Of a stretch of DNA of 64,000 nt, positions 2,782 through 14,015 are shown in pieces. The notes beneath the pieces were generated by a model. The model ran no database searches and was not told where the DNA came from. It saw nothing but the letters and a program-made list of their open reading frames with translations. Position numbers and translations under genes: made by a program. This DNA is from Limnohabitans sp. Rim8 (GTDB taxonomy: Bacteria; Pseudomonadota; Gammaproteobacteria; Burkholderiales; Burkholderiaceae_C): assembly GCF_945901735.1 (NCBI RefSeq), contig NZ_CAMDLM010000021.1, positions 1 to 64,000 of the forward strand, written 5' to 3'. The number at the start of each line of letters is the position of its first letter. Position 1 is the stretch's first letter.

Positions 2782-4122
2782 TCAGCGGCGACGCGCATCG
2801 GCGGCACCACTCCAGCGGCCCTGGCCCTGAGCGCAGTCCAGATAAGCGTCCACCAGCTTGGTCGGATCGTGCATCAGGCGGTCTTTCCAGTCGCCCAGGT
2901 GCACCTGGCCTTCAACCAAGCCGCGCATCACGCCCACATGCTCGGTCCAGCCCACGCTGTTGCAGCCGACCATCACATCGTCCTTGAACTGCAAGCTCAG
3001 GTGACGGCCTGCGGCCTTGTCGGTCAGCACCGCCGACTGGCCACCGGCCACGCCTTCCCAGTTGCCAAAACTGGTGGAGATCAAACCAAGGGTGTCGAGC
3101 ACGTTGATTTGCGTCACGCCCTTGAGCACAGCGTTTTGGCCCAGCATGTTGAGCGCGGCCACACGGGCCTGCTCGGCCGCATTGGGCTGGATGGCGCTCA
3201 CAATGGTTTTGCCGCTGACCATGTCAAAAGCTTCGGCGCAGTCGCCTGCGGCGAAGATGCCGGGCACATTGGTTTGCAGGTGCTCGTTGGTCAACACGCC
3301 TTGCAGGCAGGTGATGCCGCTGTCCTTCAAAAAGCCAATGGCCGGACGCACGCCGGTGGCGCTGATGACCAGATCGGCTTCGACGGTTTGGCCATTGGAC
3401 AGACGCACCTGCAGCGCACCGCTGGCATCGTCAGACCCCAGGCCCACAGCTGCGGCCAGTCTGCCCAGCAAGCTCTTTTCAGCACCTTGGCTGATGGCTT
3501 CGACCTTGGTTCCGGTGAACACCTGCACGCCCTTGACTTCACACCAGTCGCGGATCATGCCGCCCGCCACCGGGCCCATCATGCGGGGCACCATGCGGTC
3601 GCCCATTTCCACCACGCTGAGCTTGACGCCGCGCGCCGCCAGCGATTCCATGATGATGCAGCCAATGAAGCCCGCGCCCATTTGCAGCACACGGGCACCG
3701 GGCTTGGCCAGCGCCTGGATGGCCCGGGCGTCTTCGAGCGTCCAGCAGGGGTGCACACCGGGCAGGTCCATGCCTGCAATCGGGGGGCGCACGGGGTGCG
3801 AACCGGTGGCGATCAAGAGCTTGTCAAACGCCAAAGACTTGCCATTTTCGAGGTGCACGGTTTTGCCCGCTGAATCCACACGCGTCACTTTGGCTTTGAC
3901 CTGAGTGATGCACAGTTCGTCAAAGTGGGCGTCGCTTTTGCGCAAGTAAGTGCCGCGCTCGTCGATGTTGCCAATCAGCAGATAAGGGATGGCCATGCGC
4001 GAGTAAGGCGCATCGGGCTCGTCGCCAATCAAGGTGATGGTGTCACCCGGGGCATGCTTGCGGATGGTTTCAGCGGCGATCACGCCAGCAGGGCCTGCGC
4101 CCAAAATCACGTGGTGGGTCAT
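2782..4122 (-). CDS. aorC: FAD/NAD-dependent oxidoreductase, AorC subunit of the aldehyde oxidoreductase
   Basis: The 446-residue protein is a class II pyridine nucleotide-disulfide-type flavoprotein. It has an N-terminal FAD site (VILGAGPAGVIAAE), a second dinucleotide site for NAD(H) (MGAGFIGCIIMESLAARG), an ATGVRP turn and the FAD-closing motif IFAAGDCAEA. By analogy with AorC of Aromatoleum aromaticum it should pass electrons from the ferredoxin chain of AorA to NAD+. I start it at ATG 4122, which has a GGAG site 6 nt upstream; a longer frame would cover the hairpin in front. It follows aorB on the same strand after a 106-nt gap that contains a hairpin. Confidence 0.85.
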   Translation of the reverse strand: MTHHVILGAGPAGVIAAETIRKHAPGDTITLIGDEPDAPYSRMAIPYLLIGNIDERGTYLRKSDAHFDELCITQVKAKVTRVDSAGKTVHLENGKSLAFDKLLIATGSHPVRPPIAGMDLPGVHPCWTLEDARAIQALAKPGARVLQMGAGFIGCIIMESLAARGVKLSVVEMGDRMVPRMMGPVAGGMIRDWCEVKGVQVFTGTKVEAISQGAEKSLLGRLAAAVGLGSDDASGALQVRLSNGQTVEADLVISATGVRPAIGFLKDSGITCLQGVLTNEHLQTNVPGIFAAGDCAEAFDMVSGKTIVSAIQPNAAEQARVAALNMLGQNAVLKGVTQINVLDTLGLISTSFGNWEGVAGGQSAVLTDKAAGRHLSLQFKDDVMVGCNSVGWTEHVGVMRGLVEGQVHLGDWKDRLMHDPTKLVDAYLDCAQGQGRWSGAADARRR

Positions 4123-4228: not shown

Positions 4229-6076
4229 TCACAGGCCCAGACGTTCCCGGGTGGCCGATGTGGGGTGGCCTTCGCCGTCCCAGCCGCGCGCCTCGTAGTA
4301 CTTGGGCAGCATTTCGTCCAACTTGCTGACCATGCCTTTGCCGGGGCCGGTTTTGGCGGCTTCGGTCATCAGGCGCTTGGGCAGGTTGTCGTCGGCCTTG
4401 GTGAAGCCGGCGGCGTTGTTGAACTCGCGCTCCATGTTCCAGATGCGCTCGCCGATGTGGTTCAAGTGCTCCATGGTGAACTCTTCGCCACAAGCGGCTT
4501 GCACCTGAGGGGCCACGTCGGCCAGGGTCCAGGCAAAGCTGGTGAAGACGCAGATGCCTGCCGAATCAAAGGCGGCTGTTGCGTCCTGGAAGGCCTTGAC
4601 CAATTCGGGCTTGCCTTCGTGCTCGGTGGGCTCTGTCTTGACCGGGATGCCCAGCACTTCAGAGGCGATGGTGTAGCCGCGCAGGTGGCAAGCACCGCGG
4701 TTGGAGGTGGCATAAGCCAAGCCGATGCCCTGGATCACGCGACCGTCATAGGCCGGGAACTCTTGGCCTTTGACGCTCATGGACAGGTCGGGGTGGCCGT
4801 ATTTGGCGGTCAGGCGCTTGGAGCCCATGCCAATTTCCTTGCCAAAACCAATGCCCTTGGCGGTCATGTCGACAAACTCGCACAAGGCTTCGGCCGAGCC
4901 AAAGGGTGCTTCGACACCAATTTGCTCTTTGGTCAGCACACCCATTTCATACAGCTCCATCACGGCGCCAATGGTGGTGCCAAAGCTGATCGGGTCAAAG
5001 CCTTCTTCGTTGCAAATCATGTTGGCGTATTGCAAGGCTTCGAGGTCATTCACGCCGTTGGCTGCGCCCAGTGCCCAAGCCGCTTCGTATTCCAGGCCGC
5101 CGTTGGCGCCCCAATACTCAGGCTTGTTTTTGACGGAGAAGTGGCCTTCGTCGATCTTGCTGATGCGGCCGCAAGCGATGGTGCAACCAAAGCAGGCTTG
5201 GTTGGTCACCAGGTGCTTTTTGCCGTCGGTTTCGCGGGGCGTGACCATGGCTTCGGCCGAGATGTCTTTGGCGCCTTCAAACTGCACATCGCGGTGATTG
5301 CGTGTAGGCAAACCACCGACTTCGTTGATCACGTTCATCAGCACCTGGGTGCCGTACGCTGGCAGGCCCTGGCCCGTGACGGCGTTGTCGGCCAGCACCT
5401 TTTTGGCCGCCTTGGCCGCCGCCATGAACGCCTTGGGGTTTTGCATGTTGCCCACGCCTTTGGTGCCGCGCACCGCAATGGCTTTGAGGTTCTTGCTGCC
5501 CATGACAGTGCCCACGCCCGAGCGGCCAGCCGCACGGTGCAGGTCGTTCACCACCGCAGCATAAAGCACGCCGTTTTCACCGGCCTTGCCGATGCTGCAG
5601 ACACGCAGCAAGGGGTCTTGCAAGCTGGACTTGAGGATTTCCTCGGTCTTCCAGACGCTTTGGCCCCACAGGTGGCTCGCATCGCGCAACTCGGCTTCGT
5701 CGTCGCTGATGTGCAAGTAAACCGGCTTGGCCGATGCGCCTTCAAAAATGACCATGTCCCAACCGGCCATTTTGAGCTCAGCGCCCCAATAGCCACCCGA
5801 GTTGGAGCAGGCAATGGCCCCGGTGAGCGGGCTCTTGGTGATGACGGTGTAGCGGCCACCGGTCGAGGCCATGGTTCCGGTCAGCGGGCCGGTGGCCCAA
5901 ATGAGTTTGTTGTCAGCCGATAGCGGGTCAACTTTGGGGTCGATCTCGCTGATCAGGTATTTGCTGCCCAGACCGCGTGAGCCGAGGTAGGCTTTGGCCC
6001 ACTCCATGTTCAGCGGTTCAGACTTGACGGTGCCAGCCGTGAGGTTGACGCGGAGGATTTTTCCAGCCCAAGACAT
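4229..6076 (-). CDS. aorB: tungsten-containing aldehyde ferredoxin oxidoreductase, large subunit AorB
   Basis: The 615-residue protein belongs to the aldehyde ferredoxin oxidoreductase family, which oxidises aldehydes to carboxylic acids using a bis-pyranopterin W cofactor and one [4Fe-4S] cluster. The cluster ligands are visible as C-x2-C-x3-C at Cys295, Cys298 and Cys302 and a fourth at Cys509 (GICVFTS), with spacing like that of the Pyrococcus enzyme. The N-terminus (WAGKILRVNLTAG ... GSRGLGSKYL ... GPLTGT) is typical of the family. ATG 6076 is preceded by AAGGAG. It lies between aorA (23-nt gap) and aorC. The tungstate importer upstream supports W rather than Mo as the metal. Confidence 0.92.
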   Translation of the reverse strand: MSWAGKILRVNLTAGTVKSEPLNMEWAKAYLGSRGLGSKYLISEIDPKVDPLSADNKLIWATGPLTGTMASTGGRYTVITKSPLTGAIACSNSGGYWGAELKMAGWDMVIFEGASAKPVYLHISDDEAELRDASHLWGQSVWKTEEILKSSLQDPLLRVCSIGKAGENGVLYAAVVNDLHRAAGRSGVGTVMGSKNLKAIAVRGTKGVGNMQNPKAFMAAAKAAKKVLADNAVTGQGLPAYGTQVLMNVINEVGGLPTRNHRDVQFEGAKDISAEAMVTPRETDGKKHLVTNQACFGCTIACGRISKIDEGHFSVKNKPEYWGANGGLEYEAAWALGAANGVNDLEALQYANMICNEEGFDPISFGTTIGAVMELYEMGVLTKEQIGVEAPFGSAEALCEFVDMTAKGIGFGKEIGMGSKRLTAKYGHPDLSMSVKGQEFPAYDGRVIQGIGLAYATSNRGACHLRGYTIASEVLGIPVKTEPTEHEGKPELVKAFQDATAAFDSAGICVFTSFAWTLADVAPQVQAACGEEFTMEHLNHIGERIWNMEREFNNAAGFTKADDNLPKRLMTEAAKTGPGKGMVSKLDEMLPKYYEARGWDGEGHPTSATRERLGL

Positions 6077-6099: not shown

Positions 6100-6576
6100 T
6101 TAAGAGGCCGAGGGCTGATTGCCCAACTTGTCGGCCCACTGCTTCATCTTGTCGATGCCGGTCCAGTTGGCATCCACAAACGTGATGGCGCCGGTCGGGC
6201 AAGCGTCGGCGCAAGCCGGGTCACCGCCGCACAGGTCGCACTTTTGCACCTTGCCGGTCTCTTGCACATAGTTGATGGTGCCGAAGGGGCAGGCGATGGT
6301 GCAGACCTTGCAGCCCACGCAGGTAGATTCGTTGACCACTTTGGCGCCGGTGACTTTGTCGACCGTGATGGCTTCCACAGGGCAGGCATGCAGGCACCAG
6401 GCTTCGTCGCACTGGGTGCAGGTGTAGGGCACTTTTTTGCCGGTGTGATGGAAATCAAACACCTTGATGCGCGATTTGGAGGTGGCGTAAGTGCCGTAGT
6501 TCTCGAAAGAACAGGCCATTTCGCACTGCAAGCAGCCGGTACATTTGTCCGGATTGATGTGCAGGACTTTCTGCAT
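6100..6576 (-). CDS. aorA: four-cluster ferredoxin-like subunit AorA
   Basis: The 158-residue protein has 16 cysteines in four cluster-binding groups: C12/15/18/22, C53/56/61/65, C86/89/92/96 and C113/116/122/126. It therefore probably holds four [4Fe-4S] clusters, like the HycB/DmsB-type electron-transfer subunits and AorA of Aromatoleum aromaticum. It would carry electrons between AorB and AorC. There is no signal peptide, so the complex is cytoplasmic. It is the first gene of the aor operon, with a good ribosome binding site (AGGAG, 7 nt) and a long 5' region of about 210 nt after tupA. Confidence 0.9.
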   Translation of the reverse strand: MQKVLHINPDKCTGCLQCEMACSFENYGTYATSKSRIKVFDFHHTGKKVPYTCTQCDEAWCLHACPVEAITVDKVTGAKVVNESTCVGCKVCTIACPFGTINYVQETGKVQKCDLCGGDPACADACPTGAITFVDANWTGIDKMKQWADKLGNQPSAS

Positions 6577-6617: not shown

Positions 6618-6638
6618 TATGAATCGGGATGCATAGGT
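6618..6638 (-). promoter_or_regulatory. candidate operator upstream of aorA, shared with tupB
   Basis: On the plus strand the site reads TATGAA-tcggga-TGCATAGGT, an imperfect palindrome (TATGmA-N6-TkCATA) 42-62 nt before the aorA start. The same 15 fixed bases with the same 6-nt spacing occur at 9122-9142 before tupB. This points to a common regulator of tungstate uptake and the W enzyme, probably the ModE-like protein at 11710-12840. Binding is an inference. Confidence 0.55.
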
Positions 6639-6788
6639 ATTGTTAATCCAAGCCCCTGCAAACCGATCCGTATTTACCCTATGTTTAGCAGGCTTGTCCT
6701 CAAAATTCTCAGCTTGAAACACATCTGACAGGCCCCTGACTGCCCACCCCAGCGATCTATCGCCAAACCAGCTTGCCCAAAGCCGGAA

Positions 6789-7601
6789 TCACTTGACCGC
6801 GTTCGGGAAAAACAACTGCTCGCCGCCAATTTTGTAATCGGCAATCACGCCCTGCCCAGCGGCCGAGGTGATCCAGTCGACAAACTTTTGCGCATCGGCT
6901 TGTTTGACGTGCGCATGTTTTGCGGGGTTGACCACCATGACGCCGTATTGGTTGAACAAGCGGTTGTCGCCCTCCACCAGGATGGCCAAATCCGCGCGGT
7001 TCTTGAAATTGAGCCAAGTGGCGCGGTCGGCCAGCACATAGCCGCCTGAAGACGCCGCGATGTTCAAAGCCGGGCCCATGCCGCAGCCGCATTCCTTGTA
7101 GCCGCTGCCTTTTTTGTCAGCCAGATTGGCCATTTTCCAAAAGCGCAATTCGGCCGCATGGGTGCCACTCTTGTCACCGCGCGAGATAAACGCCGCGTTG
7201 CCTAAAGACAACTTGGCCAAGGCCGCCACGATGTCTTTGCCTTTGGTGGCTGCCGGGTCGGCTTTGGGGCCAATCAGCACAAAGTCGTTGTACATGACGG
7301 GCAAGCGCTTGAGGCCAAAGCCATCGGCCACAAACTTTTCTTCGGCCGCTTGGTCGTGCACAAACACCACATCGGCGTCACCCCGGCGCGCCATGTCAAG
7401 CGCTTGGCCGGTGCCCAGCGCCACCACTTTCACGTCCAGCCCACTGGCTTTTTTGAAGGCAGGCAGCAAATGGGCGAACAAGCCCGATTGCTCGGTGGAC
7501 GTGGTGGACGACATCACGATCGATTGGGCTTGCGCCCACACCGAGGTGGTGGCCAAAACAGCGCACACCAGGGCGCGGCGGGTGAAAGTTTTAAAGGTCA
7601 T
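6789..7601 (-). CDS. tupA: tungstate ABC transporter substrate-binding protein TupA
   Basis: The 270-residue protein starts with a signal peptide (TRRALVCAVLATTSVWAQA) and continues with SSTTSTEQSGLFAHLLPAF, the TTS-type oxyanion-binding motif of TupA/WtpA-like tungstate binders. Later segments (ISRGDKSGTHAAELRFW and YVLADRATWLNF) also fit TupA. It should capture tungstate in the periplasm and pass it to TupB. The ATG at 7601 overlaps the tupC stop (ATGA) and has AAGGAGA upstream. The gene sits immediately before the tungsten aldehyde oxidoreductase operon, so metal uptake and use are adjacent. Confidence 0.9.
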   Translation of the reverse strand: MTFKTFTRRALVCAVLATTSVWAQAQSIVMSSTTSTEQSGLFAHLLPAFKKASGLDVKVVALGTGQALDMARRGDADVVFVHDQAAEEKFVADGFGLKRLPVMYNDFVLIGPKADPAATKGKDIVAALAKLSLGNAAFISRGDKSGTHAAELRFWKMANLADKKGSGYKECGCGMGPALNIAASSGGYVLADRATWLNFKNRADLAILVEGDNRLFNQYGVMVVNPAKHAHVKQADAQKFVDWITSAAGQGVIADYKIGGEQLFFPNAVK

Positions 7602-8326
7602 GAAAGTTCTCCTTGAACAAAAGCATGGGCTGCCGGGCTGCACTCGGCAAGCAAAGTAGGGTCGAAAAAATCAGAAACAGGCAGGTCGGCCAAAACGCGG
7701 CCGAACTCCAAATAAACCACGCGGGTGGCCAGGCGTTTGACTTGGCCCAAGTTGTGGCTCGCCCAGACCAAAGTCAAAGGCTTGTCGGGTGCTGGGCCTG
7801 CGACAAATTCGGCCATCAAGATCTCGATCTCACGCTTGGCGTGCGGGTCCAGACTGGCCGTGGGTTCGTCCAGCAGCAAGACATCGGGCTGACGCGCCCA
7901 GGCGCGGGCCAAGGCCAGGCGCTGCTGCTGCCCGCCCGACAACTGGCGACCGTTTTGCTGCGCTACAGACTGCAGGCCCACACGCTGCAAAGCCTGCAGA
8001 GCCAAGGTCTTCGAGGCGCGCCAATTCAAAGCCCGCGAACGGTCCAGCCACACACCCAGCGCCACATTGTTCAGGGCCGACAGGCGCAGCATGTGCGGTC
8101 TTTGGAACAGCATGGCCTGGCGCACACCCGGTGTTTGAATCACCTGACCTTGAGTGGGCGGCACCAAGCCGTGCAAGGTGCGCAGCAAGCTGCTTTTGCC
8201 CGAGCCGTTGGCCCCCACCAGTGCCACGCGTTCACCCGCCGCCATGCGCAAACTCACGCACTTCAGGGCCTGTTGCGCCCCCAGTTGGACGCTGACCGCG
8301 TCAAGCGTGATATGCACGTTGCTCAT
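7598..8326 (-). CDS. tupC: tungstate ABC transporter ATP-binding protein TupC
   Basis: This 242-residue ATPase has a Walker A site GANGSGKSS, the signature LSGGQQQRLALARA, Walker B VLLLDEPTA and a switch histidine in VWASHNLGQV. It would power tungstate import through TupB. There is no C-terminal TOBE domain of the kind found in ModC, so it fits TupC better than the molybdate ATPase. Its start overlaps the tupB stop and its stop overlaps the tupA start, both as ATGA, giving a tightly coupled tupB-tupC-tupA order. Confidence 0.88.
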   Translation of the reverse strand: MSNVHITLDAVSVQLGAQQALKCVSLRMAAGERVALVGANGSGKSSLLRTLHGLVPPTQGQVIQTPGVRQAMLFQRPHMLRLSALNNVALGVWLDRSRALNWRASKTLALQALQRVGLQSVAQQNGRQLSGGQQQRLALARAWARQPDVLLLDEPTASLDPHAKREIEILMAEFVAGPAPDKPLTLVWASHNLGQVKRLATRVVYLEFGRVLADLPVSDFFDPTLLAECSPAAHAFVQGELS

Positions 8327-9066
8327 GGCTGCGCGCCCACCAGACCATCGGCCGCCGCTGGCCTCGCATGGCGTGTCTCACCCCAGCGCCGCAGGCCCGC
8401 CACCAGCGCGTTGAGCAGCAACACCACCGCCAGCAAGACCATGCCCAGCCCCAGCGCCAGCGGCAAATCGCCCTTGCTGGTTTCCAGCGCAATGGCGGTG
8501 GTCATCACGCGGGTGAAACCATCGATGTTGCCGCCCACAATCATGACGGCCCCCACTTCAGAGATGGCGCGGCCAAAAGCCGTCACGCCCACCGTCAGCA
8601 AAGCCAGGCGCTCATCCCAAGCCAGCAACAAGCTGCGCACCCAGGGGCCTGCGCCCAAGGATGCCCATTGTTCACCATGCTGGCGCTCCACGTCCTCCAC
8701 CACCTGGCGCGTGAGCGCCGTGACCACCGGCACCACCAAAATGAACTGGGCCAGCACCATGGCCTGAAAACTGAACATCCAGCCCAAAAAGCCTAAAGGC
8801 CCGGTGCGCGACAACAAGAGGTACACCACCAAACCCACCATCACCGAGGGCAGCGCCAGCAAGGTGTTCAGGCCCACCAAAACAAGGCCCCGGCCACGAA
8901 AACGCGACACCGCCAACCAAGCGCCCAGCGCCACGCCCACGCCATAGGCCAGCAGGCAGGCCGTGGCACTCACGGCCAAGGAGCGCGTGACCACCACCCA
9001 CAGGGCAGGGTCGAAAGAAGTGACGAGGTTCAGCGCCGTCAGGACGCTGTCGGAGAAGGTGTTCAT
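8323..9066 (-). CDS. tupB: tungstate ABC transporter permease TupB
   Basis: The 247-residue inner-membrane protein has about five or six hydrophobic segments and the permease signature loop EVGAVMIVGGNIDGFTRVMTTAIALE, the EAA-like contact with the ATPase. Sequence and context fit the TupB branch of the molybdate/tungstate/sulfate permeases. It is the first gene of the tupBCA operon. An 86-nt region in front holds the motif shared with aorA (9122-9142) and ends at the terminator of the TRAP operon, so the operon should have its own promoter. Confidence 0.88.
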   Translation of the reverse strand: MNTFSDSVLTALNLVTSFDPALWVVVTRSLAVSATACLLAYGVGVALGAWLAVSRFRGRGLVLVGLNTLLALPSVMVGLVVYLLLSRTGPLGFLGWMFSFQAMVLAQFILVVPVVTALTRQVVEDVERQHGEQWASLGAGPWVRSLLLAWDERLALLTVGVTAFGRAISEVGAVMIVGGNIDGFTRVMTTAIALETSKGDLPLALGLGMVLLAVVLLLNALVAGLRRWGETRHARPAAADGLVGAQP

Positions 9067-9121
9067 ACAGCGCTTTGGATGCTAAGGGACAAGCCCCCCG
9101 CAAGGTATGAGGGGTGTCCAC

Positions 9122-9142
9122 TATGAACAAGTTTGCATAGGT
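9122..9142 (-). promoter_or_regulatory. candidate operator upstream of tupB, shared with aorA
   Basis: The plus strand reads TATGAA-caagtt-TGCATAGGT, matching 6618-6638 at all 15 bases outside the 6-nt spacer. It lies 56-76 nt before the tupB start. The two outer hexamers are inverted relative to each other, as expected for a dimeric regulator. No third copy was found by eye before dctP, dctQ or the regulator gene. Confidence 0.55.
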
Positions 9143-9195: not shown

Positions 9196-10983
9196 TTACT
9201 TCTTGCTCGCCTTCATATCGGCTTCCAAGGCTTTGGCCGGGTCGTCCTCATCAGGCTTTTCACCGTCCAACTGAGGGTCTTCCTCTACACCGTCTTGCGA
9301 CTGGCCTTCGTTTTGCAGCATTTGCTCCAACGCGGCCTCGGCATCGACCTTCACACCCTCTTGCAGGCCACCGGTAACCAAAGACGGCACCATGATGATG
9401 GCCGCCACCATGATCAACTGAAGGATGATGAAAGCGATCGAGCCTTTGTAGATTTCGGAAGTCGTCACAGCGCGGATGTTCTCCCCAGTGACCCGGTCTT
9501 TGTAATCGTTCTTGGGCGCAACACTGCGCAAATAGAACAAAGCAAAACCAAAGGGCGGCGTCAGGAACGAGGTCTGCAGGTTCATCGCCACGATCACCCC
9601 GAACCAGATCATGGCCTGGTCGGCAGTCATGCCAGGCACCAACCCGGGCAAGATCTTCTCGGCCACAGGGGCCAGGATCGGGATCACGATGAAGGCGATT
9701 TCAAAGAAGTCGATGAAACAACCCAAGATGAAAATCAGGATGTTCACCACGATCAAGAAGCCGATCGCACCACCCGGCATGTCGACAAACAGATGCTCCA
9801 CCCAGATGTGGCCATCGGCTGCATTGAAGGTGAAGCTGAACACGGTCGAGCCGATCAGGATGAACAGCACAAACGAGGCCAGCTTGGCCGTGTTTTCCAG
9901 CGCCTGGTTCATCAAAGGCATGCTCAAACGGCGCTTGCCAATGGCCAAAATCAAGGCACCCAAAGCCCCCATGGCACCGCCTTCGGTGGGCGTGGCGACA
10001 CCCAGAAAGATGGTTCCCAGAACCAGGAAGATCAAAATCAGGGGCGGCATCAGAACAAAGGTTACCTGCTCAGCCAATTTGGACAACAAGCCCATGCCGG
10101 TGACGCGGTTGACGATGGCCAAGGCCAAAGCCACCAAGGACGCCACAGTCAAGGACATGATGACCATTTCATCGCCGGGGGACTCTTGGGTGCGGTCGAG
10201 CCAAGCGGTCATGATGGCATCGTGGGACGAAGCCCATGAAAAACCCACCACCGCGCACAAAATCAAAAGGAACATCAAGGACACATGGCCTGATTTGCCA
10301 TTGGCTTCGCGGTAAATGCGGGCTTCGGGCGGCAAGGCGGGCACCATGTCCGGCTTGAAAATGGCCACGGCCACTATGAACAAGACGTACAAACCGACCA
10401 ACAGCAAGCCGGGCACCAAAGCACCGGCGTACATGTCACCCACCGAGCGGCCCAATTGGTCGGCCAACACGATCAACACCAACGAAGGCGGAATGGCTTG
10501 CGCCAAGGTGCCCGAAGCCGTGATGGTTCCGGTGGCAATGACACGGCTGTAACCGTAGCGCAGCATGATGGGCAAAGAGATCAAGCCCATGGAAATCACG
10601 GCCGCAGCCACGACACCAGTAGTGGCCGCCAACAAGGCCCCCACCAAAATCACCGCGATAGCCACGCCACCACGCACAGGGCCAAACACCTGACCCACCG
10701 TCTCCAGCAAATCTTCGGCCATGCCGGATTTTTGCAAAATGATGCCCATGAAGGTGAAAAACGGAATGGCCAGCAAAGTGTCGTTTTGCATGATGCCAAA
10801 AATGCGCAAGGGCAAGGCCTGAAACAAGGAAGGCGGGAACAGTCCCGCTTCCATGCCGATGTAGCCAAAGCCCAGACCGCAAGCGGCCAGCGCGAAAGCC
10901 ACCGGAAAACCGGTCAGCAGCAGCACAAACAAACCGGCAAACATGATGGGCACAAAGTTCTGTGCCAGAAAAGTCGCTTCCAT
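9196..10983 (-). CDS. dctM: TRAP transporter large permease (DctM)
   Basis: The 595-residue membrane protein is the large permease of a TRAP transporter, with many hydrophobic helices and the family motifs PFFTFMGIILQKSGMAEDL, GTLAQAIPPSLVLIVLADQLG and TPPFGFALFYLR. It couples Na+ entry to solute import together with DctQ and DctP. It is longer than the usual 430 residues, mainly through an insert between helices in the middle and a charged Glu/Asp-rich tail (EEDPQLDGEKPDEDDPAKALE). This size is seen in the mannitol/chloroaromatic or 2-oxoacid type TRAP group. The ATG at 10983 overlaps the dctQ stop. Confidence 0.9.
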   Translation of the reverse strand: MEATFLAQNFVPIMFAGLFVLLLTGFPVAFALAACGLGFGYIGMEAGLFPPSLFQALPLRIFGIMQNDTLLAIPFFTFMGIILQKSGMAEDLLETVGQVFGPVRGGVAIAVILVGALLAATTGVVAAAVISMGLISLPIMLRYGYSRVIATGTITASGTLAQAIPPSLVLIVLADQLGRSVGDMYAGALVPGLLLVGLYVLFIVAVAIFKPDMVPALPPEARIYREANGKSGHVSLMFLLILCAVVGFSWASSHDAIMTAWLDRTQESPGDEMVIMSLTVASLVALALAIVNRVTGMGLLSKLAEQVTFVLMPPLILIFLVLGTIFLGVATPTEGGAMGALGALILAIGKRRLSMPLMNQALENTAKLASFVLFILIGSTVFSFTFNAADGHIWVEHLFVDMPGGAIGFLIVVNILIFILGCFIDFFEIAFIVIPILAPVAEKILPGLVPGMTADQAMIWFGVIVAMNLQTSFLTPPFGFALFYLRSVAPKNDYKDRVTGENIRAVTTSEIYKGSIAFIILQLIMVAAIIMVPSLVTGGLQEGVKVDAEAALEQMLQNEGQSQDGVEEDPQLDGEKPDEDDPAKALEADMKASKK

Positions 10984-11585
10984 CAACGTGCTCCCTGAAC
11001 TTGTTCTTGCGCCAGTTTTTCCAGTGCAATCAATTCTTTTTGCTCATCCGACATGGCCTCTTCAGAAGACAAAACGTCTTCGCCCTGCCCCACCAAAAAG
11101 TCCAAGCGTTTGATCAGTTCCGACACACCTTGCAGCATGAGCAAGGCAAAGCCGGCAGGCACCAGCGCATACACAGGCCAACGGATCAGGCCACCCGCGT
11201 TGGAGGACATTTCGCCGCTGATGTAAGCCTGCATGAACAAGGGCCAAGACAAGTAAATGCACAAGAAACAAAACGGGAACAGGGCCAACAAAATGCCGCC
11301 CACGTCAATCCAGTTGCGGGCACGCGCCGTCAACATGGACGAAATGAAGTCGATGCGTACGTGCGCATTTTTAAGAAAGCCATAGCCAGCCCCCAACAAA
11401 AACACAGCGGCAAACAGGTACCACTGGATTTCCAGCAAGGCGTTCGAGCTCGAATCAAAAGCCTTTCGCACAATGGCGTTGCCTGCACTGATCAAGGTCG
11501 TGGCCAGAATCAACCAGGTGGTGAAAAGTCCCACGCTTTGATTCAAACGGTCAATGCCCCGCGAAATCAACAAGAAAAAAGACAT
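10983..11585 (-). CDS. dctQ: TRAP transporter small permease (DctQ)
   Basis: The 200-residue protein has four hydrophobic segments and the DctQ features GYGFLKNAHVRIDFI and IQWYLFAAVFLLGAGY. It is the small membrane subunit linking the binding protein to DctM. The C-terminal 40 residues are charged and cytoplasmic. A GGAGG-like site precedes ATG 11585. The gene overlaps dctM by one base. The binding protein gene dctP lies 1.35 kb upstream, separated by a regulator gene on the same strand. Confidence 0.88.
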   Translation of the reverse strand: MSFFLLISRGIDRLNQSVGLFTTWLILATTLISAGNAIVRKAFDSSSNALLEIQWYLFAAVFLLGAGYGFLKNAHVRIDFISSMLTARARNWIDVGGILLALFPFCFLCIYLSWPLFMQAYISGEMSSNAGGLIRWPVYALVPAGFALLMLQGVSELIKRLDFLVGQGEDVLSSEEAMSDEQKELIALEKLAQEQVQGAR

Positions 11586-11709
11586 GTTGTCCTCCAGAAA
11601 TTCAGGTGCTATTGTAATTCTGCGTTAACCGGCCACAGCGTGTTTACACCAAATGCTTGGGTTGATATTTGTCACGGGCGCCATGAGCACATTTCACAGC
11701 TGTAAAAAA

Positions 11710-12840
11710 TCAAGGGTTAACCCCAAGGGGGACGCGCGCCGCTCTGAATTGCCACCAAGGCAGCATGCTGCGCAAGGACTGCACCTGACCCGCATCGGCG
11801 GTGGTGGTGTATCCGGCCATCGCTTGCAAACGTTGCTGCCAAGCCGACTCGCTGAGCAAAGCGCGCAATTGCCGCACGGGTTCGCTGTCCAACGCCGATG
11901 CCAGGCACACCAGCCAATAACGCTCCGGGTACAAAGGCACGAAATCGAGCCCATGCACCTGCGCCGCACTGGCGATGCCCAAGCCTGCGTCGGCCTGACC
12001 CGCAGCAATGCAAGCAGCCACCGCGCTGTGCGAATTTTCTTCGTGCGCATAGCCTGTCAGGTCCGATGCCTGCAGACCCAAAACTTGCAGGCACTGGTCC
12101 AGCAGCAGGCGTGTGCCTGTGCCCGGACTGCGGTTGACATAAAGCGCGCCGGCCTGGGCCACATCCGCCAAGCTTTGCAAACGCAAATGGTTGCCCGGCG
12201 CCACCATCAAACCTTGCGAACGTGTAGCAAAACCAATCAGCTTATGCAACCCAGGCTTGAGCAAAGGTTTGTAGGTGCGGGCCACCAACGAATCCGCATC
12301 GGGTTGCCAAGGTGCATGAAAACCCGCCACATGGCAGCGCCCCTCGTTCAGGGCGCGGATGGCGTCGACGCTGCCGCAAAAGCGCAAGTCAAGGTGCAAG
12401 GACTGGGCTGCGGCTTCTTCCCGCAGCATGACCAATGCATCGTCGTGGCTGGCATAGATGGCCAAGGCCTGGTGCGTGGGATCAAAGGCCACTGCAAACG
12501 TTTTTTCCAGCTCGGCCTGCAAAGCGCTGATTTGGGGCGCCAACCGGGCTTGCGCTTGTCGCTCGGCCCAAAGCAACTTGTCGGCAAAACCGGTCAGCCG
12601 GGCGGCCTGGCCCTTCTCCCAAACGATGAGAGGTTGCCCCAATGATTGCTCCCAGCGCTTGAGTTCGCCCCAAACATGGCGGTAGGACAAGTCCAGATGT
12701 TTGGCTGCACCGCCAATCGAGCCGGCGTGGCGCACCGCTTGCAACAAGTCCATGAGGGGGTTGCGCAAGGGGCTTTGGCGATTGCGCGCCGTTTCATGGC
12801 CCGGCTGGGTCCATTGGTACGAGAGATCGATGTGCTGCAT
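11710..12840 (-). CDS. ModE-type HTH fused to a periplasmic-binding-protein-like domain: transcriptional regulator
   Basis: The 376-residue protein has two parts. Residues about 28-110 are a winged helix of the ModE kind (LLQAVRHAGSIGGAAKHLDL, YRHVWGELKRWEQSLGQPL, ARLTGFADKLL). Residues about 120-350 resemble a substrate-binding PBP domain (SRSQGLMVAPGNH-like region, then VNRSPGTGTRLLLDQCL and IAAGQADAGLGIASAAQ). ModE-PBP proteins are thought to sense an oxyanion or related ligand. It sits between dctP and dctQ but only 2.6 kb from tupBCA, so it could control either the TRAP genes or the tungsten genes. The PBP part replaces the TOBE domains of classical ModE. Confidence 0.8.
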   Translation of the reverse strand: MQHIDLSYQWTQPGHETARNRQSPLRNPLMDLLQAVRHAGSIGGAAKHLDLSYRHVWGELKRWEQSLGQPLIVWEKGQAARLTGFADKLLWAERQAQARLAPQISALQAELEKTFAVAFDPTHQALAIYASHDDALVMLREEAAAQSLHLDLRFCGSVDAIRALNEGRCHVAGFHAPWQPDADSLVARTYKPLLKPGLHKLIGFATRSQGLMVAPGNHLRLQSLADVAQAGALYVNRSPGTGTRLLLDQCLQVLGLQASDLTGYAHEENSHSAVAACIAAGQADAGLGIASAAQVHGLDFVPLYPERYWLVCLASALDSEPVRQLRALLSESAWQQRLQAMAGYTTTADAGQVQSLRSMLPWWQFRAARVPLGVNP

Positions 12841-12888
12841 GGATTGAAGTTTGCCCTATAGCCAAGCACCGAGCTGGCTTGGCCAAAA

Positions 12889-12912
12889 CAAAAGGCCCCG
12901 AAGGGCCTTTTG
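12889..12912 (-). terminator. intrinsic terminator after dctP
   Basis: A 10-bp perfect stem (caaaaggccc/gggccttttg) with a 4-nt loop lies 24 nt beyond the dctP stop. It is symmetric enough to work in both directions and isolates dctP from the regulator gene. Confidence 0.75.
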
Positions 12913-12935
12913 TGGTGCATGCATGCGGGCCTGAA

Positions 12936-14015
12936 TTACAGTTTGGCCGATTGCATGTAGTTGTCGAAGCGCGCTTCGGTGAAGCGGAACCACTGGTTGG
13001 CTTCCTTGCGGAAAGCCGAGTAGTCGCCGTAGATTTTTTTCCAACCTGGGTTCTTTGTGCCGATTTCTTCGTAAAGGGCCATGGACTCTTTGAAAGCCGC
13101 GTCCATCAAATCCTTGGGGAAAGGGAACAACTTGGCACCACCGGCGACCAAGGTCTTGAGCGATGCAGCGTTGCGTGCGTCGTAACGGGCTTGCATGTCG
13201 GTTGCTGCAAAACTGGAAGCCGCCTCGATGATTGCCTTGTACTCGCTGGACAGACTGTCGTAAGCTTTTTTGTTGATGTGCAGGTCCAACTGAGGACCGC
13301 CTTCCCACCAACCTGGGTACGCGTAGTTCTTGGCCACTTTGTAGAAGCCCAGTTTCAGGTCATCGTAAGGGCCCACCCACTCGGCCGCATCGATCGTGCC
13401 TTTTTCAAGCGCTTGGTAAATCTCGCCGCCAGGAATGTTTTGTGGCACGCCACCGATGCGCTCAACCACTTTGCCTGCAAACCCGCCCACGCGGAATTTG
13501 GTGCCCTTGAAGTCGGCCAAGGACTTGATCGGCTTGCGAAACCAGCCACCCATTTGAGCGCCTGTGTTGCCCATCACGAAGTTGACGATGTTGTAGTTGT
13601 TGTAATGCTCGCGCATCAATTTCATGCCGTTGCCATGCAGCATCCAAGCCGTCATCTGGCGGCTGTTCAAACCAAAGGGAATGGCACAACCCAAGGCAAA
13701 CACTTCGTCCTTGCCAAAGTAGTAGTAAGGCGCGGTGTTGGACATTTCCACGGTGCCGTCTTTGGTGGCGTCGATGGTGCCGAAAGCGGGCACCAATTCA
13801 CCGGCCGCGTGGGTGGTGATCTCGAACTTACCGCCGGTCATTTCCTTGACCTTGGCTGCGAACACATCGTTCACACCAAACAAAGTGTCCAGCGCCTTGG
13901 GAAAGCTGGAAGTCAGACGCCAGCGCAGGGCTGCTTGGGCGTGAACCGCAGGTGCAACACCGGTAGCCAAAATACCGGCCATGCCGGTGTTTTTGATGAG
14001 GGAACGACGATCCAT
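12936..14015 (-). CDS. dctP: TRAP transporter substrate-binding protein (DctP/TakP-like)
   Basis: The 359-residue protein begins with a twin-arginine-type signal peptide (MDRRSLIKNTGMAGILATG) and has DctP family segments: RWRLTSSFPKALDTL, PIKSLADFKGTKFRVGG, and GEIYQALEKGTIDAAEWVGPYDD. The last of these is the canonical TRAP binder motif in which an acidic solute is held by arginine (here in KFRVGG). It most resembles binders of the TakP group for 2-oxo acids or related monocarboxylates. The true ligand is unknown. It has its own terminator and a good ribosome binding site (AAGGAG). Confidence 0.88.
   Translation of the reverse strand: MDRRSLIKNTGMAGILATGVAPAVHAQAALRWRLTSSFPKALDTLFGVNDVFAAKVKEMTGGKFEITTHAAGELVPAFGTIDATKDGTVEMSNTAPYYYFGKDEVFALGCAIPFGLNSRQMTAWMLHGNGMKLMREHYNNYNIVNFVMGNTGAQMGGWFRKPIKSLADFKGTKFRVGGFAGKVVERIGGVPQNIPGGEIYQALEKGTIDAAEWVGPYDDLKLGFYKVAKNYAYPGWWEGGPQLDLHINKKAYDSLSSEYKAIIEAASSFAATDMQARYDARNAASLKTLVAGGAKLFPFPKDLMDAAFKESMALYEEIGTKNPGWKKIYGDYSAFRKEANQWFRFTEARFDNYMQSAKL

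Follow-up and report, generated by a model that had tools for sequence, protein, structure and literature searches.

A short inverted repeat stands before both tungsten operons in a stretch of 64,000 nucleotides (nt) from Limnohabitans sp. Rim8 (contig NZ_CAMDLM010000021.1, positions 1 to 64,000; hereafter the window). We call this repeat the box; the protein that uses it as operator is most likely a regulator encoded on the minus strand at 11710-12840, in which a ModE-like helix-turn-helix (HTH) is fused to a PBP_like domain. Taking all parts of the proposal together, we consider it likely that the box serves as a tungstate operator from which the tungsten-free form of this regulator activates tungstate uptake (tupBCA) and represses the genes of a tungsten aldehyde oxidoreductase (AOR; aorABCD) and of formate dehydrogenase (fdh). 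The repeat occupies positions 6618-6638 (TATGAATCGGGATGCATAGGT) and 9122-9142 (TATGAACAAGTTTGCATAGGT), and its 15 fixed bases are the same in both. A preliminary description of this DNA had reported two motif copies with identical halves, and both copies are indeed exact. Its 21-bp palindrome, however, comprises a symmetric unit of just 18 bp, TATGMA-N6-TKCATA, with the trailing GGT being a partly conserved flank outside the palindrome, and its allegedly completely different spacers, tcggga and caagtt, agree at one position of six, both having g in fourth place. Read on the sense strand of both downstream genes, the box is TATGCA-N6-TTCATA, i.e. a directional and slightly asymmetric palindrome, with the copies TATGCA-AACTTG-TTCATA before tupB (9122-9139, minus strand) and TATGCA-TCCCGA-TTCATA before aorA (6618-6635, minus strand). 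The gap to the start codon is 55 nt for tupB (ATG at 9066) and 41 nt for aorA (ATG at 6576). Directly 5' of the tup box, the flank at 9140-9142 (minus strand) reads CC on the sense strand; across 45 non-redundant tupB promoters, C was found at -2 in 82% and at -1 in 69%.

The box is rare in its own genome. Apart from these two, the window holds no exact copy, and only the exact copies stand out, because allowing two mismatches gave five matches in the window where 3.42 were expected. Throughout the 3.67-Mb genome, the degenerate pattern had three exact matches, two of them being the window boxes, and the strict oriented form TATGCA-N6-TTCATA occurred exactly twice, both times in the window, which speaks against a motif common at random places, the possibility named in the preliminary description. 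The third degenerate match (C6:3084, TATGAAAGCGATTTCATA) was treated as chance because it departs from the strict oriented form and has no recognised target beside it. Eleven further sites carried one mismatch; the open reading frames (ORFs) around them were mechanical calls judged by eye. Six fell within long ORFs (L258, L259, L261, L264, L266, L267), L263 overlapped an ORF start, L260 and L262 were intergenic with no gene assigned, and a single one, L265 (C30:18623), could be placed in the regulon as it precedes the formate dehydrogenase gene fdhA. No moa gene was recognised beside any of the 11 in these ORFs, for which no family search was made. The site L268 (G000:C63, position 598, TATGCATTAAAGTGCATG) precedes, as judged by eye, a boxR-like ORF near a boxC-like ORF and is probably an operator of the reported BoxR type that resembles the tungsten box.

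To follow the box into relatives, we built a matrix from tupB upstreams alone (37 in number, with 30 distinct words, all 37 carrying the box) and took the 99% level of dinucleotide shuffles as threshold. Among 80 loci with relatives of AorB, mostly titled Limnohabitans, Hydrogenophaga, Polaromonas or unclassified Burkholderiales, this tup-trained matrix scored above the threshold in 68 of 75 aorA upstreams (five loci had too little DNA), and in genus g121 it did so in 29 of 30, the miss being L337. Limnohabitans loci with both promoters have the box before tupB and aorA at near-constant distance, with varying spacer bases at tup. The box is hence kept before tup and aor in relatives, which speaks against the other refuting condition of the preliminary description, a lack of such conservation. 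Several aorA upstreams of g121 carry a third half-site in tandem, and overlapping tandem half-sites (e.g. TATGCA-N6-TTCATAGGCA-N6-TTCATA) were seen before aorA in L055, L103, L318 and L334, which suggests that more than one dimer may bind cooperatively there.

The tie to the regulator comes from a scan of 399 family genomes, a selection from a larger group, for the strict box, with the reversed pattern as a control. The box was present in 116 of them (reversed pattern: four matches) and the regulator in 185 (E <= 1e-60): 102 genomes had both, 14 the box only, 83 the regulator only and 200 neither. The regulator thus accompanied the box in 102 of 116 genomes versus 83 of the 283 others (Fisher p 4e-28, a value inflated by shared ancestry). 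Among 150 strict sites listed, of a larger number, at least 66 had their midpoint 8-193 nt before a regulator match, all reading away from the regulator, and 25 preceded aor, 20 of these in sense orientation. Wherever loci were read in relatives, the regulator was divergent from tup with the box in between. Besides, when the order was scanned for a composite pattern (box, 23 nt, TANNNT) with no regard to genes, 20 sites turned up in 19 of 399 genomes (control: 0), and 15 of the 20 adjoined a divergent regulator homologue of 36-61% identity. In genus g91 (L141, L142), a paralogous HTH/PBP regulator of 38-39% identity has a strict box ~18 nt before its start.

These associations also bear on whether the box might be read by another protein, for instance a BoxR-like aromatic-acid regulator, or by some other factor. 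It is true that TGCA-N6-TTCA lies one base from the motif TGCA-N6-TGCA reported for BoxR, that the one-mismatch site C63:598 has the boxR- and boxC-like ORFs (by eye) mentioned above, and that the strict site L146 precedes boxC. Yet with at least 66 of 150 strict sites before the regulator and 25 before aor, a gene of the boxC kind at one of 40 further sites fetched (of 59), and co-occurrence with the regulator at p 4e-28, we regard such a reader as very improbable. As far as sequence can tell, then, the claim of the preliminary description that tungstate uptake and use are co-regulated is backed by footprinting, by rarity in the genome and by the tie to the family of the 11710-12840 regulator.

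This presumed box binder (11710-12840, minus strand), whose family is divergent beside the box in relatives, combines a ModE/LysR-type winged HTH (HTH_1, E 1e-8) with a PBP_like domain (PF12727, E 8.4e-56). Its N-terminal HTH matched the ModE HTH 2ijl at E 0.001, and the family model TIGR00637 at E 8e-9 but with 35.5 bits, below the cut-off of 98.5. The box, too, recalls ModE in having two 6-bp half-sites with a 6-bp spacer, as reportedly does the Mo box. However, ModE has TOBE/Mop domains, none of which was found in the window regulator by Pfam at E up to 0.001 (PBP_like being listed as the sensor), and its half-site is said to be TATATA rather than TATG(C/A)A. An AlphaFold model of the regulator (23 sequences; predicted local distance difference test, pLDDT, 84) matched full-length LysR regulators best, with 8sbf, 1iz1, 5y2v and 6xtv on top in Foldseek (E 1e-13 to 1e-11). 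The model thus predicts a LysR-like fold, although query TM-scores were only 0.34-0.41 with a large root-mean-square deviation, and domain order fitted better than overall placement. Unlike LysR proteins, the regulator has PBP_like as its effector domain, and the T-N11-A motif reported for LysR sites was not supported in the box by eye.

Kazakov and colleagues (2013, J Bacteriol 195:4466) reportedly described, to go by their title, tungstate-responsive regulators of sulfate reducers. TunR, a regulator of this kind, is said to have a different domain make-up. Another tungsten regulator, TaoR, was reportedly described by Rajeev and colleagues in 2019 (doi 10.1111/1462-2920.14500). TaoR is said to regulate tup in Desulfovibrio, and to do so with a polarity opposite to the one that we propose. 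The window resembles that system in placing one operator before both tup and aor, a likeness of arrangement. According to one report, TaoR has a PBP-like sensor domain and regulates a tungsten aldehyde oxidoreductase, and TaoR-like proteins carry an HTH_17 domain (PMC11980592). The PBP-like sensor and the enzyme under control are thus shared with the window regulator, whereas the DNA-binding domains differ: Pfam found no HTH_17 in the window regulator at E up to 0.001 and HTH_1, which resembles ModE, instead.

The position of the box relative to the likely promoters suggests how the regulator might act. In the 45 non-redundant tupB promoters, TANNNT counts peaked at +55 (23), +41 (11) and +56 (5) from the first base of the box, compared with a mean of 0.5 per position. 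The tup box accordingly lies 23 or 37-38 nt before the -10 and is centred near -45 or -59, near which activators usually act. In the window, the probable -10 hexamer of tupB (TAGCAT, 9079-9084, minus strand) follows the box by 37 nt and precedes the ATG by 12 nt, i.e. the transcript would be nearly leaderless. At fdh, by contrast, at least 16 TANNNT counts lay 5-20 nt upstream of the box (21 promoters), and the probable -10 region of aorA (AACAAT, 6639-6644, minus strand), conserved across genera, sits directly upstream of the aor box at -9 to -4, ending 3 nt before it. We infer the identity of the aor and fdh -10 elements, and with it the direction of control, from these positions: a protein bound at the tup box, which precedes the -10 by a set distance, should activate, and one bound at the aor and fdh boxes, which cover the start immediately after the probable -10, should repress. 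Because a cell needs uptake under tungsten scarcity and the enzymes under tungsten plenty, it is most likely the tungsten-free protein that acts on DNA.

We therefore picture a regulator dimer that would bind the two half-sites (TATGCA and TTCATA, with the 6-bp spacer) and so join tupBCA and aorABCD in one regulon, together with formate dehydrogenase elsewhere in the genome. Tungstate on the PBP domain would release or reshape the regulator, whereupon uptake would stop and aor and fdh would be freed. Co-regulation as put forward in the preliminary description stands in this amended form: control probably has opposite signs at the two promoters, and the regulon would be wider, adding formate dehydrogenase and, in other genera, the activator of exaC. 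The same operator and regulator could also work the other way round, with the tungstate-bound form binding DNA, activating aor and repressing tup. There is said to be precedent for this in Escherichia coli ModE, which reportedly binds DNA with molybdate, and in TaoR of Desulfovibrio vulgaris; but a box that precedes the tup -10 by a constant spacing and follows the likely -10 of aor and fdh is the reverse of what such a holo-form would need, and we hold it to be unlikely. The geometry also bears on the notion that the element belongs to the core promoter common to these genes and is no operator. Its near-constant orientation at tup and aor, and its closeness to the starts, would suit such a feature, but the box comes before the likely -10 at tup and after it at aor/fdh, and few copies exist in the genome, with a single regulator linked to them, which leaves this notion a next to negligible probability.

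Further elements were noticed at the two promoters. A palindrome of the type AGGG(A/T)TAACCCT (AGGGTAAATAC, 6670-6680, minus strand, in the window) is conserved from genus to genus (L006-L085, L318-L347), preceding the aor box by about 34-45 nt, and is extended to AGGGTTATCCCTAGG in many g121 loci; it is a possible second operator and could bind a separate activator of aor. A sigma-54 signature at aor was not supported by eye. Limnohabitans tupB upstreams have a conserved GGACA(C/T)CCCT block after the tup box, often with GTCC before the -10 (9085-9121 in the window), GGAC and GTCC together forming an inverted repeat. A riboswitch-like role of this repeat was not supported by eye, no RNA search having been made.

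The predicted regulon includes formate dehydrogenase. Of the 43 regulator-positive genomes searched, 41 had fdhA, and 21 of the 30 loci examined scored above the 99% level, or 16 of 25 once the five genomes that the box itself had brought to light were set aside. The genome of the window is among the 21 (L211), with the site C30:18623. Out of 40 regulator- and AOR-free genomes, seven had fdhA; none of their six usable upstreams passed (best score 9.1 versus 11.3 at the 99% level). As judged by eye in the box rows L201-L230, a short ORF with a twin-arginine translocation (Tat)-like leader usually lies between the box and fdhA, the box standing about 20-50 nt before its start. Among the 150 strict sites listed in the family scan, 59 were assigned neither to the regulator nor to aor; 40 of these were fetched and 28 given gene context. 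They comprised formate dehydrogenase catalytic genes (9), FdsG- or NuoF/FdsB-like genes (2), tup (6), exaC or its activator (7), regulator homologues or a fragment (3) and a molybdenum hydroxylase small subunit (1). One of the six tup sites is shared by moeA, and some also adjoin the regulator (L139 and L240 denote one site). Regulator homologues of 39-41% identity are divergent from genes that resemble fdsG by eye in four loci (L243-L245, L249), with the same box and -10 spacing. In a report on Cupriavidus necator, FdsR belongs to a formate-inducible system whose inducer is formate, not tungstate (PMC7057948). Because homologues are divergent from fdsG-like genes in these four loci, FdsR may be a member of the regulator family.

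In some lineages, the box also stands before the gene of a sigma-54 activator divergent from exaC, which encodes an acetaldehyde dehydrogenase (family NF050026). In all six strict sites between the two genes (g62, g121), the box is followed at exactly 23 nt by TA(A/C)CAT, as at tup. The composite pattern occurred in four of five g62 genomes, once each and always before the activator of exaC, and in 56 of 70 g121 genomes (no control match; 69 sites listed). Forty of these 69 sites were examined: 27 belonged to regulator/tup, 12 to the exaC activator and one to neither. Each of the 12 sits in the stretch that separates exaC from the activator gene and is oriented to the latter; five of the genomes concerned (G813, G846, G807, G820, G346) carry tup on the contig of the exaC site, no more than 20 kb away. 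AorB is encoded in 11 of the 12 (the exception being an 84%-complete genome), in 25 of 27 single-site genomes and in none of four box-free genomes tested. Since 25 of 27 single-site genomes also have aorB, this gene tracks the box generally and not the exaC site.

Above the 99% level, the matrix matched 10 of 19 exaC loci from AOR-positive genomes (40 searched). A search of 40 genomes devoid of both AOR and the regulator gave 24 exaC loci in 23 of them; none of these loci passed the 99% level (p 5e-5, relatedness uncorrected) and five passed the 95% level. Dropping three loci found through the pattern left 7 of 16 versus 0 of 24 (p 6e-4, likewise uncorrected for relatedness). The other nine of the 19 have no box. 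The seven of these 16 (score 13-16) were not counted as switch promoters because they are weak and no -10 was seen at the tup spacing. The strict box of L174 (the L137 site) points toward exaC, again lacking the -10 spacing. We give an even chance to the idea that in some lineages the tungsten-free regulator also turns on the sigma-54 activator of exaC, such that aldehyde oxidation continues without tungsten. The tungsten-free form would then switch uptake on, AOR and formate dehydrogenase off, and the metal-free, NAD-dependent ExaC on. This swap does not apply to the window, because its genome has no close exaC (none at E 1e-230) and the exaC upstreams of the two other Limnohabitans lack the switch promoter (no box in L159, a weak box without -10 in L163).

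Several observations weigh against our interpretation. The window regulator starts 3.7 kb away from the tup box, amid a TRAP (tripartite ATP-independent periplasmic) transporter cluster, and no box was found by its own gene, even with two mismatches. In the family, 83 genomes have the regulator without a strict box and 14 have the box without a listed regulator, and sister genomes are not independent of one another. Seven of the 75 aorA upstreams are without a good box (L033, L037, L041, L043, L056, L080, L083), and L039 and L063 pass the 99% level barely. Box orientation, strict at regulator and tup sites, is not so at aor (5 of 25 reversed) or at fdhA (four listed boxes reversed). As for direction, repression of aor is a positional guess, because the conserved AACAAT is a weak -10 and no TANNNT peak was present there, and the polarity that we propose is the opposite of that reported for TaoR. 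The fdsG-like neighbours hint that some family members may answer to formate. Finally, binding and the metal specificity are what we infer: molybdenum, tungsten or another ligand would look alike in the DNA.

On the minus strand, the window genes run in the order dctP, regulator, dctQ, dctM, [box] tupB-tupC-tupA, [box] aorA-aorB-aorC-aorD. The uptake operon encodes TupB, a tungstate ATP-binding cassette (ABC) permease (8323-9066; NF041773, E 2.8e-50, below the curated cut-off, and NF038017 above its cut-off), TupC, the ABC ATPase (7598-8326, domain search), and TupA, the tungstate-binding protein (6789-7601; NF041772, E 3.3e-71, below the curated cut-off). The enzyme operon encodes AorA, a 4Fe-4S ferredoxin-like subunit (6100-6576), AorB, the large subunit of tungsten aldehyde oxidoreductase (4229-6076) with both AFOR domains (PF01314 and PF02730), AorC, an FAD/NAD(P) oxidoreductase subunit (2782-4122), and AorD, a MoaD/ThiS-like protein (2512-2766), AorA, AorC and AorD being assigned by domain search. 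The three enzyme subunits resemble those described for the Aromatoleum aromaticum AOR (PMC6365974). AorB identities of 98-100% point to Limnohabitans as the genus. In many Limnohabitans loci (L007-L031), the TRAP genes dctP, dctQ and dctM (9196-14015 in the window) enclose or border the regulator and tup, in at least two arrangements, and they may be connected with aldehyde or acid substrates of AOR. Besides, a public record titled Akkermansia muciniphila (L010) carries a Limnohabitans-like contig (AorB 98% identical) and is probably a mislabelled bin.

In summary, the control of tungsten use is little described in aerobic freshwater bacteria, and the literature that we searched, which mostly excluded subscription papers, yielded no operator for tungsten genes in Burkholderiales. 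Metal-sparing enzyme swaps are known in principle for other metals, and if the link to exaC is true, it would represent such a swap for tungsten. In Pelobacter, tungsten limitation led to use of a molybdenum isoenzyme, with no DNA switch named in the abstract of that report (PMC4275255). The box described here defines a directly testable regulon, comprising tup, aor and fdh, in Limnohabitans, which are common lake bacteria.

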